Source of the DNA: a virus
Length of the DNA: 34,769 nucleotides
Virus record (IMG/VR): IMGVR_UViG_3300010885_004539
Span: 1-34,769 of that record
Direction: 5' to 3' (one strand)
Shown here piece by piece: positions 1,040-8,388 of this stretch. Each line of letters begins with the position of its first letter. Positions within the stretch are counted from its first letter, which is position 1. A model generated the notes under the pieces. The model worked only from the letters and a program-made list of their open reading frames with translations, was not told where the DNA came from and did no database searches. The translations under genes and the position numbers were made by a program.

Positions 1040-1684
1040 TTAGGCCGAAAGTTTGATCCTGATGATTTTCTTCATGCTCTGACCATGAGTCTGGTAGGCC
1101 ACTAGAGGAACATCCTTCGACCAGCAAGCTCTGCACGAACCACACTTGCCGTCATTAGATGGCGCATGACACATCGTCGCCCCTAGTGACTCTGCAATGG
1201 CTGGCGATGTGACTACCGCACTGCCTGCATTTGGGCCGACTTGATCGATGTTATCTGACGAGACTCGAACGACTACATTCGGGAGAGCCTTCATACGAGA
1301 CAGAACATCGGCAAACTTTGCAAACTTTGCCATCCGGGTGGGGAACCAATGCTGGCAGTGGGGCGTAGCAATCATCACTTGCAGCATCTTTTCGGCGAGT
1401 TTGACTTGGTAGCAATCGCCCGAATCGAACCAGCGAAAGTAGCGATGATTGTCCAATTCGGAGACCATCTCTTGAACCCAGTCCGGGCGTTTCCAGTCCT
1501 CCATATTTGACTCACGCACAGCCTTAACTGTCTTCATACGATAGAACCCTTCGAGGGCGTAACATCCTTGGCAGACTTCTACGAATTGCCCATCGTCACC
1601 CATTGCACCCGGACAGGTATCACCGACGGGAAGAGACCATGAAGCTCCGGGCATTTTGCTAGTTTTGGAAAGACGGACTGCCAT
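1040..1684 (-). CDS. GP88-family protein with Cys clusters (putative Fe-S protein)
   Basis: This 214-residue protein matches the phage GP88 family pattern as I know it: an N-terminal TCPG followed by CxxCYALEGFYR, then RWFDSGDCY, LPNVVVRVSSDN, and a C-terminal CGSCRACW with YQTHGQ. The spaced cysteines suggest an Fe-S or zinc site; relatives resemble radical-SAM proteins in layout. The reaction is unknown to me. I chose ATG at 1684 (MAVRLSKTSK), preceded by AAGGGG about ten bases upstream. A longer frame with ATG at 1729 would start inside the CUGAUGA core of the hammerhead ribozyme and has no Shine-Dalgarno sequence. It is the first gene after the inferred genome end, so probably early and host-transcribed. 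Confidence 0.7.
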   Translation of the reverse strand: MAVRLSKTSKMPGASWSLPVGDTCPGAMGDDGQFVEVCQGCYALEGFYRMKTVKAVRESNMEDWKRPDWVQEMVSELDNHRYFRWFDSGDCYQVKLAEKMLQVMIATPHCQHWFPTRMAKFAKFADVLSRMKALPNVVVRVSSDNIDQVGPNAGSAVVTSPAIAESLGATMCHAPSNDGKCGSCRACWSKDVPLVAYQTHGQSMKKIIRIKLSA

Positions 1685-1700
1685 GATATTTAATCCCCTT

Positions 1701-1758
1701 ATAAAGTTTCGCGCTAAGCTGGCGCTCATCAGTAGGACGAAATAGTCCTAGACTTTAT
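1701..1758 (-). ncRNA. Type III hammerhead self-cleaving ribozyme
   Basis: All hammerhead elements are present on the minus strand, 5' to 3'. Stem III is AUAAAG (1758-1753) paired with CUUUAU (1706-1701), a perfect 6 bp. The cleavage triplet is GUC, with the cut expected between 1751 and 1750. Stem I is UAGGAC (1750-1745) paired with GUCCUA (1738-1733), a perfect 6 bp with the six-base loop UAUUUC. The core strand CUGAUGA is at 1732-1726. Stem II is GCGC/GCGC (1725-1722, 1714-1711) with loop CAGCUUA. The second core strand GAAA is at 1710-1707. Both ends open at stem III, hence type III. The orientation matches the genes. The ribozyme abuts the AAGGGG Shine-Dalgarno sequence of the GP88-family gene and lies in its 5' leader. 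Confidence 0.94.
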
Positions 1759-2420: not shown

Positions 2421-2530
2421 AGAGGGGCCACGGGGGATACTTTGGGCGCTCCGGTCTCATAAGGGGTAAGAAACTTTTGTGATGAAATTATTCGGCTCAT
2501 CATTCGGCTCACTCTCCCCCGCAGTTACTC

Positions 2531-2670
2531 GTATGATTCCAAGCAGGGTCTCGTATGATTCCAAGCAGGGTCTCGTATGATTCCAAGCAGGGTCTCGTAT
2601 GATTCCAAGCAGGGTCTCGTATGATTCCAAGTAGGGTCTCGTATGATTCCAAGCAGGGTCTCGTATGATG
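2531..2670. repeat. Six tandem 22-bp repeats plus a partial seventh
   Basis: Units begin at 2531, 2553, 2575, 2597, 2619 and 2641, each starting GTATGATTCC and ending GGGTCTC. Five are identical and the fifth has one change (GCAGGG to GTAGGG). A partial unit follows at 2663-2670. There are no spacers. The array reads through as an 80-codon open frame on the minus strand only because 66 bases hold three units. The spacing is close to two DNA helical turns, which fits iterons for a DNA-binding protein such as terminase, but function is unknown. Confidence 0.9.
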
Positions 2671-2873: not shown

Positions 2874-3002
2874 TCCTTGATAACACTAAAGAGGTAACCA
2901 CCGGCTGGTGGAGACTCTTTAGAGCTACCTTCTGTCTCTACCTTAGGGGGGTTTAATCTTGGGTGGTAGTGAAGTCTTATAACTCCTAGAGTAAACCTTA
3001 GT

Positions 3003-3059
3003 GGAATCCAAGGAGACTCTTTAGGGGACTCTATAGGGGAATCCAAGGAGACTCTTTAG
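3003..3059. repeat. 22-bp direct repeat at 35-bp spacing with CTCTTTAG motifs
   Basis: A 22-base sequence beginning GGAATCCAAGGAGACTC and ending TTTAG occurs exactly at 3003-3024 and 3038-3059. Related GACTCTTTAG or GACTCTTTGG pieces occur near 2915 and 3060. On the minus strand these contain CTAAAGAG, which resembles the short CCTAAAG repeats that flank the terminal repeat of T7. Confidence 0.75.
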
Positions 3060-3126
3060 AGACTCTTTGGGCTACCCTCTAGACCCCCATAGCTCTCTAT
3101 CTCTATACTCCCTAGTTTTACTCTTT

Positions 3127-3220: not shown

Positions 3221-4921
3221 TCACCAATTCTCCATTGGATCAAGGACTTGGCTATTATTGCCCACAACGTGTTCCATGAATACCATTAGGTCTTCCTCAA
3301 GTAATCTATCGTTGTGATCAGCGATGGAAGTGTCCTGATCCTTGGCCATAGCTTCGATCCAGTAGGCCACTGCTTCAGCCAACACATCGAGCCTATCGTC
3401 GTGCAACAGGGAGCCACGATCCTTGGTAATCCTAGTGAGTTGATGGAAGAGTTGATACTTCATCCATGTATCCCCCGGATGCTCATTGAAGTTCGTCTGG
3501 TCTCGAGCGATGAGACACTTGTTGACCACGAGCCTGTGCTGGTTCATTACTGGTTCCAGCGTATCAATGATTCGCTTCTCCTTCTGAGTGGAGTTACGTC
3601 TACCCTTCATAAACTCCTCATCGATAGAGGCTGGGTAGAGGCGCTTGAGGTAGGGCTTGAAGAGTTCTGTAAACATGCCATCACCAAAGTTATCCTCGAT
3701 GATCACATTGTTGACCTTCCACTCCTTCGCTTTCATGGCTAGGTTGGTGAGAGTCGTAGGCGTATAGCCATCCTTGTAGCCTCCCATGTCCAACAGGTAG
3801 AGCATCCCGTGGAGTTGAGCCACGATGCACCAGCCGGTCTCATCCTTGCCCCTCCCTGAGGGATCGATAGCCATGATGATGCCTTGGTACTCGGAATACT
3901 CAGGGGAGACCCACATAGGCTTGTGCCACCTATCACCAACGAACCCTACGGACTCTGCATCTTCCAACACAGTGTCCTTGCCTGAGGCCCATGTAACTCG
4001 AACAGCAGCCACTAGGCGATCCAAGTCCATAGCAATCAGATCACTGATCTTGAGGGGGTAACGATCTCCATCGGCCAAGCTTGTGTCCATCATGAACTGA
4101 AGGGCAAAGCCAGAGCGACCATAGGAGGCCTCCCGTTCAGCAAGGTCTAGGTCGGTGAAGCGTCTAGGGTCGGTACTCATGTGGGAGAGCTTGTCCCCTT
4201 CAGCTTCAATCTTGGCCAGTATCAGGGGGGCCAACCGGTTGTTGTAGCGGGAGGTATCCTTCTGTGCCACATATCTAGCTGGCCAGATACGAACATCGTA
4301 GCCCCGCTCGGGGAGTACGTTGTAGAGAGACATCTCGGTCTGAGGAGTTCCTAGATAGACAATCTCACCATCAGGAACCAGTACAGCATCGAACTCCTTG
4401 ACTGCCTCTGAGAGTTTGTCCCGCTGGGTCTGCGTGAGGGAGTTCTTGGGGACTTCCACGTCATCAGGAATGATGATGGTAGCGCGTCCCCCAGTAAGCT
4501 GCCCATTGATGCCCACAGAGCGCACCGAGGGGGCTTGGTGAGCAGAGCTTGGGCCTACATCGAAGGCAATGTTTGAATCACGGTGGCCCTTGGTGGGGTC
4601 AGGCTGGAGGTGCTTGATGATTGGCACTTCACTAATGAGCCTCTTGAGGAACACACTGAAGGCATCAGCACGATCCTTCGAGGCAGACACCACCAGGATT
4701 CTCTCCTCTGGGTTCTTGAGGAGTCGCCACAGCACGTAAGCTGCGGTGATCCATGACTTGCCCACGCCTCGGAAGGCCTGAACCATACGCCGCTTCTTAC
4801 CATGTTGCAGGTAGAGGGCTATGTCGTACTGAATGGGGGTTGGATCGGGGAGGCCTAAGTGCTTCCAGATCACATACATGAATAGGCGAAAGTCAGCCTT
4901 GATCTTCTCTTCTTGGGTCAA
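3221..4921 (-). CDS. 19: Terminase large subunit (DNA maturase B)
   Basis: This 566-residue protein (T7 gp19 has 586) is the packaging motor and nuclease that moves phage DNA into the prohead and cuts concatemers. The Walker A segment FRGVGKS is at residues 50-56 and Walker B IIIPDDVE around 149-156. The C-terminal nuclease shows IMAIDPSGRGKDETG (Asp353), VIIEDNFGDGMF and HDDRLDVLAEA. The frame starts with TTG at 4921 (reads MTQEEKI), which places the conserved DFRLFMYVIWK region as in T7. There is no upstream in-frame ATG and the Shine-Dalgarno sequence is weak. A 134-base gene-free gap with C-rich hairpins separates it from the small subunit. A phage promoter follows the gene. Confidence 0.96.
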   Translation of the reverse strand: MTQEEKIKADFRLFMYVIWKHLGLPDPTPIQYDIALYLQHGKKRRMVQAFRGVGKSWITAAYVLWRLLKNPEERILVVSASKDRADAFSVFLKRLISEVPIIKHLQPDPTKGHRDSNIAFDVGPSSAHQAPSVRSVGINGQLTGGRATIIIPDDVEVPKNSLTQTQRDKLSEAVKEFDAVLVPDGEIVYLGTPQTEMSLYNVLPERGYDVRIWPARYVAQKDTSRYNNRLAPLILAKIEAEGDKLSHMSTDPRRFTDLDLAEREASYGRSGFALQFMMDTSLADGDRYPLKISDLIAMDLDRLVAAVRVTWASGKDTVLEDAESVGFVGDRWHKPMWVSPEYSEYQGIIMAIDPSGRGKDETGWCIVAQLHGMLYLLDMGGYKDGYTPTTLTNLAMKAKEWKVNNVIIEDNFGDGMFTELFKPYLKRLYPASIDEEFMKGRRNSTQKEKRIIDTLEPVMNQHRLVVNKCLIARDQTNFNEHPGDTWMKYQLFHQLTRITKDRGSLLHDDRLDVLAEAVAYWIEAMAKDQDTSIADHNDRLLEEDLMVFMEHVVGNNSQVLDPMENW

Positions 4922-6513: not shown

Positions 6514-8388
6514 TTAAGCCACCGCCACGCAACGCCACTTGGATGTAGTTACGTTCCAGAAGAACCCAACATCCAAACGAGCGGTAGTCACGGTAGTAGT
6601 TGGCAGAGCAACACCACCAGAGGCTTCAAAGGAGGAGCCAAAGGTCAGTGCAACAGCAGCCGTACCAGTAACACTAATCCGCAGGGTGTCTCCAGCAACA
6701 GGCGTACCTGTCATCGTGAAGCCAGTGATCGCAGCAGTCTGTGCCGTGATAGTTACAACCTCATAGCTATCAGAGTTGATTGCCGGGGCAGGAACATTAG
6801 CAGTTAGTGAGAGGACACGATTGGTCACACGCTTGTTGGTCAATGTCTCGACACCCGTAGGTACAGAGTAGTCATTACCAGCAGTAGCATTCGCAAGAGC
6901 GCCCCCTGATGCAGCTTTGAGCAACGCTGTGCCAGCCGGTGGTGCTAGGTAATCAGTACCAGCAGTAGCATTAGCCAACGCACCACTTGATGCAGCCTTG
7001 AGCATCGATGTGCCTGAAGGTGGTGCAAGGTAGTCAGTACCAGCTACTGCATTTGCCAGAGCGCCACTAGATGCAGCCTTTAGCAACGCTGTGCCAGCAG
7101 GGGGTGCAAGGAAGTCAGTACCTGCAACAGCAGCAACCAGTGCGCTACCAGAGCCACCCTTGAGTACCCCAGAGCCAGCAGGAGGTACAAGGTAGTCAGT
7201 CCCCGCAGTAGCCACCGAGAGGACACCAGAGTTCAGCTTGGGTATCCCCGATTGGGTAGCCCGCTTGATGACCTTGCCGGTAGTCGATGAGTACAGCGCC
7301 AACTCACTATCCACTGAAGCAGAAGCACTCGATGAGGCATCACCATAGTCAGTCCCCAAGGTAGCTACAGAGATGACACCAGCGGTCAGCTTGACGATGC
7401 CGGTCTGGGTTGCTCTCTTGATGATCTTGCCCGTTGTCGAGGAGAAGAGTGCAAGCTCGTTATCAACGGAGGATGCGGAGGTCGAGGTTACATCACCAGC
7501 GCCACTCCCAGAAGCACCTGTAGAACCTGTAGCACCAGTAGCCCCGGTCGGCCCAGTAGCACCATTAGTACCGTTAGTACCAGCAGCACCTGTAGCACCA
7601 GTAAGTCCGGTAGCACCTGTAGCACCAGTAAGTCCGGTAGCACCATTAGTACCAGCAGCACCTGTAGCACCTGTTGTTCCAGTCGAGCCAGTTGGCCCAG
7701 CCCCACCAGTTGCCCCAACAGCACCGTTAGCACCGTTAGTACCGTTAGTACCGTTAGTACCAGCTAGTGCAAGCACATCCCAGTAGGACACATTGGGGGG
7801 AGCATGGTTAATACCTGAAGCATTGGCAACGTATGAGTTTCCAGCAAGAGTGACGGCATCTCTATTGGTATAAGTAATGACGCTATTCCATGTACCAAGC
7901 CAGTTGATCTTGTTTACCACAGCAAGACTTGCCTGAGTGGTAGCTGTACTGGCTGAACCACTTGCAGCAGAAGCACTGGAGGCAGCGGCTGATGCACTCG
8001 AGGCTGAAGCATTAGCGCTCACAACGGCAGCAGCAGCACTAGCGGCTGAAGCAACAGTGGTGGTTCCAATGAGCAGCGCAGTGTCGAGAGACTCTTGCGC
8101 CATGTAGAACATCTGAGTACCGTCAGCGTTAAGCGAACTGGCAGTCAGTACAGAGGCATCTTGGAAGGCGACCAGACGAGTAGCGAGTGAAGTACTGCGA
8201 CGAATATCTACAGTGACTCCAATGGCTGGCGCGGAGGCCAAGTGAATGATACCGGCTGATGCCCATGTGAATGCGGCAACCACACCATTCAAGGTGACAG
8301 CTATATGGCTTTTATTGATGTAGCCGAACGGCACTGCGAAATCGGTAAGAATACCGTTACCCGCATACTGTACGTTTGAGTAGGCCAT
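6514..8388 (-). CDS. 17: Tail fibre protein with collagen-like shaft
   Basis: The 624-residue fibre is built as follows. Residues 1-150 match the T7 gp17 N-terminal tail-attachment domain ([24 protein letters not shown]), followed by an Ala/Ser-rich coiled segment. Residues 163-207 resemble a CBM5/12-type carbohydrate-binding module ([35 protein letters not shown]). Residues 210-293 are 28 Gly-X-Y triplets. Two diverged copies of a 45-50-residue unit ([26 protein letters not shown]) and four 27-residue repeats come next, then [13 protein letters not shown] and a beta-rich tip ending [12 protein letters not shown] at 8388 has GGAGA seven bases upstream. It should be the host-recognition fibre. 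Confidence 0.9.
6877..7200 (-). repeat. Four 81-bp in-frame repeats in the tail fibre gene
   Basis: The fibre holds four consecutive 27-residue units (residues 397-504), each starting T-D-Y/F-L and containing [14 protein letters not shown] and GALANA-AG. Copies two to four are nearly identical; the first is more diverged. They probably form repeating beta or triple-helical shaft elements and could change in number by recombination. Confidence 0.85.
7507..7761 (-). repeat. Collagen-like Gly-X-Y coding repeat
   Basis: About 28 Gly-X-Y triplets (residues 210-293), mostly GAT, GTN, GLT and GPT. On the plus strand this gives long GTA/ACC runs with extra open frames that are only shadows. Collagen-like segments in phage fibres form trimeric shafts. 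The near-identical codon blocks suggest slippage or recombination. Confidence 0.9.

Follow-up and report, generated by a model that had tools for sequence, protein, structure and literature searches.

Hammerhead ribozymes of all types have been described in prophages by Perreault and others, who proposed a role in mRNA processing (Perreault, 2011; PMC3088659). In the clusters reported from Agrobacterium, Azorhizobium and Clostridium scindens, several types flank single small phage genes, and the prophage hammerheads cleave in vitro, the Agrobacterium one also in E. coli (PMC3088659). In the haloviruses HF1 and HF2, a variant named HHphage precedes an early gene, its distance to the start codon being 13 nt, and the 5′ end of the transcript falls within 3 nt of its cut (PMC3088659). 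A review published in 2017 noted the link to phages and presented the role of prokaryotic hammerheads as an open question (PMC6155905). The prophage and halovirus cases agree with the statement, made when the present locus was first annotated, that hammerheads are known in some tailed phages.

The copies described here compare with these systems in different ways. HHphage likewise stands shortly before an early gene, but it has a variant core and belongs to an archaeal tailed virus with an unrelated genome. For the prophage clusters neither a phage family nor a rule of position was given, whereas the copies found here belong to the early region of T7-like phages, where the leader copy is as a rule of type III. 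The tail, ardA, marR and integrase genes of the Agrobacterium cluster resemble the marR-integrase order of the temperate T7-like phages RHEph01 and LUZ100, and that cluster may be of the T7-like kind. In a full-text search of literature readable without subscription, hammerheads and T7-like phages were joined only through the use of ribozymes as tools; phage and prophage hammerheads are known already, and the T7-like early-operon pattern is without report in the papers searched. A further point of comparison is the early mRNA of T7 itself, in which RNase III, a host enzyme, cuts long hairpins; one of these sites, R0.3, lies just before gene 0.3. The slot just upstream of the first early gene matches that of the ribozyme described below, and the agents differ: in T7 a host protein acts on a long hairpin, while here the RNA would cut itself.

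The DNA analysed here (the window) is a virus contig of 34,769 bases without end repeats. Its genes lie on the minus strand in T7-like order: RNA polymerase, single-stranded DNA-binding protein, endonuclease, amidase, primase/helicase, DNA polymerase and exonuclease, followed by portal, capsid, tail and internal proteins, tail fibre and terminase. The single-subunit RNA polymerase, the T7-type replication and virion genes and their T7 order on one strand place the contig with the Autographiviridae, and the initial annotation as a T7-like phage is upheld by the T7 type of its RNA polymerase, primase/helicase, DNA polymerase, portal, capsid and terminase. The tail fibre gene contains 81-bp tandem repeats (6868-7212) and also matches collagen repeats. 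The ribozyme lies 1.46 kb downstream of the terminase gene on the same strand, within the 5′ leader of a GP88-like gene whose ATG is 16 nt beyond it (Table 1). This ATG is taken as the true start because homologues begin at the same residue. The AUG within CUGAUGA (1729-1727, minus strand) is in frame with the gene, and the open reading frame listing began the protein there; gene callers may therefore start the protein inside the ribozyme. Searches with the GP88-like protein gave no close relatives among viral contigs and only distant ones among isolates.

Table 1. Features of the window around the ribozyme, with the ligase annotations of two related phages (positions are those of the window unless a locus is named).
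Feature	Position	Strand	Basis
Type III hammerhead ribozyme	1701..1758	-	Direct reading, RF00008 match, descriptor, MFE fold
Predicted cleavage site between C17 (1751) and U1.1 (1750)	1750..1751	-	Hammerhead numbering applied to the sequence
Shine-Dalgarno-like AAGGGG, directly beyond stem III	1695..1700	-	Sequence
GP88-like gene, 214 aa, ATG 1684-1682	1040..1684	-	PF17338 E=6e-30, phrog_1392 E=1e-22
15-bp hairpin at the junction after the GP88-like stop codon	996..1029	-	990-1040 fold -24.6 kcal/mol, z -5.2
22-bp tandem repeats, 6.5 copies, terminase-ribozyme interval	2528..2669		As expected near phage genome ends
Terminase large subunit gene, synteny anchor	3221..4921	-	phrog_38 E=1e-117, PF22530
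T7-type single-subunit RNA polymerase gene, N-terminus lost at contig end	33002..34726	-	PF00940 E=7.5e-109; match from phrog_414 position 237
RHEph21 RNA ligase 2	L149 13906-14523		Annotation
Lo5R7ANS split tRNA splicing ligase	L154 8855-10050		Annotation

By direct reading, the minus strand from 1758 to 1701 is AUAAAGUC UAGGAC UAUUUC GUCCUA CUGAUGA GCGC CAGCUUA GCGC GAA ACUUUAU. Stem III is formed by AUAAAGU (1758-1752) and ACUUUAU (1707-1701), with 7 pairs including the conserved U16.1-A15.1; stem I by 1750-1745 and 1738-1733, with 6 pairs closed by the loop UAUUUC; and stem II by the two GCGC strands (1725-1722 and 1714-1711), with 4 pairs and the loop CAGCUUA. The core strands are CUGAUGA at 1732-1726 and GAA at 1710-1708, with C17 at 1751, and every base of the hammerhead core (CUGANGA ... 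GAA, A15.1-U16.1, H17) is there. Three nested stems of 7, 6 and 4 pairs without mismatch, stem III being the open one, give the type III topology, and the position of the predicted cut follows the established hammerhead numbering scheme. The MFE fold of the stretch is exactly the hammerhead structure, at an ordinary energy (z -0.5). Fast hammerhead cleavage needs contacts between loops, and by eye at most 2 bp could be drawn between loops I and II, a count that takes in canonical pairing.

With the Rfam covariance model RF00008 (Hammerhead_3, known from viroid-like satellites, viroids and some bacteria), the same stretch was matched over the full model (positions 1-54 of 54) with 43.1 bits and E=3.5e-8. 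The window copy shares with this family the core, the open stem III and the full-length match, and differs from it in its loops (6 nt for loop I and 7 nt for loop II, unlike the family consensus) and in its setting, a phage mRNA leader and not a circular RNA. Since 43.1 bits is under the RF00008 gathering score of 48.5 bits, routine Rfam annotation misses the ribozyme, and a scan of the window at the gathering threshold left it unlisted; that score is a database threshold and no property of the molecule. Among 16 similar phage records, 14 were matched by RF00008 at E<=0.01 and none exceeded the cut-off. The gathering score leaves out every phage type III copy examined, including some with E near 1e-10.

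Could the resemblance to a hammerhead be a matter of chance? The ordinary folding energy and the score under the gathering cut-off would allow the question, and the answer comes from simulation and comparison. A descriptor covering the three circular permutations of the hammerhead, run on 60 Mb of simulated sequence with the dinucleotide composition of the window, returned 4 hits in all, of which none had stems of this length, or about 0.005 hits expected per window on both strands. Together with the E value of the RF00008 match and the syntenic copies in many phages described below, this effectively refutes chance resemblance. The initial reading needs little change. Its core bases, their order and their orientation on the minus strand were reproduced base for base; the cut that it had placed between 1751 and 1750 is the one predicted here; the covariance model it had called for gave its hit; its view that a chance origin was very unlikely is matched by the simulation; and the identity as a type III hammerhead is sustained by core bases, covariance model, orientation and comparative evidence. 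For stem III the pairing stands, and the count of 6 pairs becomes 7 with the inclusion of U16.1-A15.1. Whether the copy was catalogued had been left open; like all 16 of the similar records, it falls below the Rfam cut-off. By its sequence, the element is a genuine type III hammerhead, uncatalogued at default thresholds.

The initial annotation also placed the ribozyme in an early leader. From the contig alone, the GP88-like gene could be the last late or the first early gene, and an early placement is unprovable on that basis because the contig breaks off within the RNA polymerase gene and lacks end repeats; synteny with complete relatives, on the other hand, sustains it. The distance from the terminase stop to the GP88-like start codon is 1536 nt, and that from the terminase to gene 0.3 in T7, measured with the genome joined across one terminal repeat, is 1571 nt. 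In near-complete relatives of 40-41 kb, equivalent hammerheads occupy the stretch 0.7-2.8 kb from the left end and the polymerase gene comes after them, and in LUZ100 host-polymerase promoters are annotated just inside the left repeat. A location like that of R0.3, in the leader of the first early gene and upstream of the polymerase gene, was thus found directly in the near-complete relatives and through the terminase offset in the window.

Other elements of this region were recorded as well. Besides the 22-bp repeats, 35-bp tandem repeats occupy 2999-3066 in the terminase-ribozyme interval, and the two sets recall the short repeats at T7 genome ends. A consensus scan upstream of the ribozyme gave no convincing host promoter. 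The minus-strand sequence CCCTTAGAGACTCCACAGAGGGAGA at 2035-2059, 0.28 kb upstream of the ribozyme, agrees by eye with about 13 of 23 T7 promoter positions; it was not called a promoter, as a single copy that is not repeated within the window. The hairpin after the GP88-like stop codon is a candidate RNase III site, terminator or 3′ stabiliser; a hammerhead scan at this junction gave no match, and the window has a single ribozyme copy.

To place the window copy among its relatives, the surroundings of T7-like terminase genes were scanned in virus contigs, isolates and bacterial genomes. The first sample comprised 242 distinct loci, 150 of them with at least 3 kb after the terminase, and a hammerhead was present in 20 of these 150. 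In this sample 37 hammerheads lie downstream of the terminase, all of them on the coding strand, and the other strand has none. Three more were found elsewhere: one in Rhizobium phage RHEph01, where the linear record opens with the early region, and two weak hits. RHEph01 is an isolate, and its early-region hammerhead is of type I. Descriptor hits in L185 and L290 and one overlapping hit in L169 were judged to be chance. Several copies may occur in one phage, with four in L206 and L213 and three in L169 and L223. The second sample, drawn with two new queries after the pattern had been seen, comprised 119 new terminase loci and is dominated by one marine clade; all 71 of its hammerheads lie downstream of the terminase on the coding strand, and 27 of 55 loci carry one. 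Over both samples, 108 of 111 hits fall in the early region in coding orientation, and the opposite strand gave no hit. Only a minority of T7-like loci carry a hammerhead (20/150; 27/55). In the marine T7-like clade L331-L410 (for example L350, L362 and L381), up to five hammerheads of mixed types stand in series in one early operon.

The topology of a copy is related to its place. Distances from the terminase in the first sample are 1.07-1.79 kb for type III copies and 1.78-6.4 kb for types I and II (MWU p=1.7e-6); in the second, type III is again nearest the terminase (p=1.2e-7). In the first sample, a start codon with a Shine-Dalgarno sequence follows within 30 nt for 10 of 12 type III copies and 4 of 24 copies of types I and II, and a stop codon precedes within 30 nt for none of the 12 and 16 of the 24. 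The second sample repeats both relations, with start codons after 24/28 type III and 10/37 type I/II copies (p=3e-6) and stop codons before 2/28 and 15/37, respectively (p=0.004). Random positions fall near starts in 9-13% of cases and near stops in 6-8%. The gene calls behind these counts are heuristic (open reading frames with a Shine-Dalgarno-like start and a minimum length of 40 aa), and the p-values overstate the independent evidence because one marine clade dominates the second sample. The rule of position is strong and not absolute: some type III copies lie at 2.3-2.9 kb in L416, L418, L452 and L455, and the first hammerhead is of type I in L346, L391 and L455. On the terminase tree the type III label changes at least nine times, and the leader slot has therefore been filled or emptied several times.

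In the related marine clade the stems are kept with compensating changes. A comparison of 18 related leader copies showed 269 of 270 inner pairs intact, a figure biased by the stem-requiring descriptor that chose the rows, and changes on both sides at 10 of 15 pairs, a count less affected by this choice. Pairs were counted from the core outward, since MAFFT put the stems out of register when unrelated type III copies were aligned. Within L077, one pair of stem II is A-U in one copy and U-A in the other. Compensating changes, which the initial annotation had set as a check, are thus present in the marine clade and the L077 pair; the search for a close homologue of the window copy itself gave none, and the covariation comes from the related clade. 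The nearest relatives by terminase, L002 (74% identity) and L226, are without a hammerhead, and a scan of hammerhead-free relatives gave no other ribozyme family above threshold. The early gene junctions of L002 and L226 carry long bulged hairpins (z -6.1 in L002; z -8.7 and -5.6 in L226), and T7 RNase III sites look alike in the same scan. These hairpins, together with the one at 996-1029 of the window, suggest that ribozymes and RNase III hairpins may be interchangeable.

On the basis of motif, position, orientation, recurrence and stem conservation, the self-cleaving type III hammerhead probably processes the early transcript of this T7-like phage. Transcription of the minus strand from upstream early promoters would make the leader, which would fold and cut itself after C1751. 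A short 5′ piece would be released and lost, with only leader upstream to lose, and the downstream mRNA would start with a 5′-OH and the blunt hairpin of stem I, after which come stem II, the Shine-Dalgarno sequence and the GP88-like gene. The cut would be the counterpart of RNase III action at R0.3 before T7 gene 0.3. In relatives, type I and II hammerheads would cut between later early genes, type II leaving one hairpin and type I two on the 3′ end of the upstream RNA, where they could be useful behind a gene. Type III would keep both hairpins on the downstream RNA and types I and II would leave theirs on the upstream RNA, which matches where each type sits. Cleavage in the cell, stabilisation or separation of mRNAs and equivalence to RNase III sites are what we infer from this arrangement. 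Counted against it are the lack of a convincing host promoter upstream, the hammerhead-free nearest relatives, the minority of loci with a copy, the single copy of the window, the type III copies that are not first and the loop contacts that are not obvious.

The clustering of type III copies at start codons could also be read as a translation switch, in which initiation is slowed by an uncut stem III beside the Shine-Dalgarno sequence or start codon until cleavage frees the site, with the cleavage rate (through Mg2+, temperature or a ligand) setting the level of early protein. In L077 and L079 stem III runs directly up to the ATG (0 nt between them); in the window 16 nt separate the two, and stem III adjoins the Shine-Dalgarno sequence. 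We nevertheless consider such a switch unlikely: the type I and II copies of the same operons stand at stop codons, where cutting fits better than gating, and the predicted folds do not show a Shine-Dalgarno sequence hidden before cleavage and clearly open after it. A mobile or relic motif that brings the phage no benefit, arises or spreads easily and stays where it does little harm would account for the scattered presence, the repeated label changes on the terminase tree and the absence from the nearest relatives. It is already disfavoured, and quite improbable in our judgement, by the confinement of 108 of 111 hits to the coding strand of the early region, by a core that is kept while the stems covary and by the non-random relation to start and stop codons.

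The several hammerheads per early operon invite another thought, that paired cuts and an RNA ligase might join 5′-OH and cyclic-phosphate ends into circular or re-ligated RNAs. Related phages do annotate ligases (RHEph21 and Lo5R7ANS; Table 1), and these could act on ribozyme ends. However, the window holds a single copy, RHEph21 and Lo5R7ANS gave no intact hammerhead here, and a search for spliced or circular products of prophage hammerheads found none (Perreault, 2011; PMC3088659), which makes this account highly improbable.

Beyond the window, we hold it to be an evenly balanced proposition that a section of T7-like phages has replaced, at least partly, the host RNase III processing of early mRNA by hammerheads whose topology is set by place, type III before a gene and types I and II behind it, with Rfam cut-offs hiding most of them. 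It is the recurrent and ordered set of ribozymes, more than the single molecule, that deserves follow-up. With a constant position in a phage gene programme that is well understood, and with a simple rule of topology, the question of role becomes testable, and the isolate RHEph01 and the comparison with T7 RNase III make it approachable. Default Rfam thresholds hide these phage ribozymes.

Some further observations concern hammerheads at the margins of this survey. BLAST of the ribozyme against phages gave weak matches in Agrobacterium phage JP1 and Rhizobium phage RHEph21, rejected as partial cores inside genes, and one in Vibrio phage 1.179, in a stretch where the descriptor found nothing. 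The notion that bacterial hammerheads are always in T7-like prophages was rejected as well: 397 genomes of one order gave two type II hits, one in a T7-like prophage and one without such a terminase or RNA polymerase in the surrounding 18 kb that were retrieved. A type II hammerhead of the latter description, at L329 (8074-8129, minus strand), shows that the ribozymes are not confined to T7-like phages. Finally, an unusual form of stem III, GAAACC-UA-G...C-GAU-GGUC, is common to many copies of types I and II; in it three pairs and an asymmetric UA/GAU (or UA/GAC) internal loop extend into a long variable helix. It was seen in diverse phages and in both topologies (L152, L162, L198, L181, L206, L213, L223, L421, L422, L452, L455 and L463).
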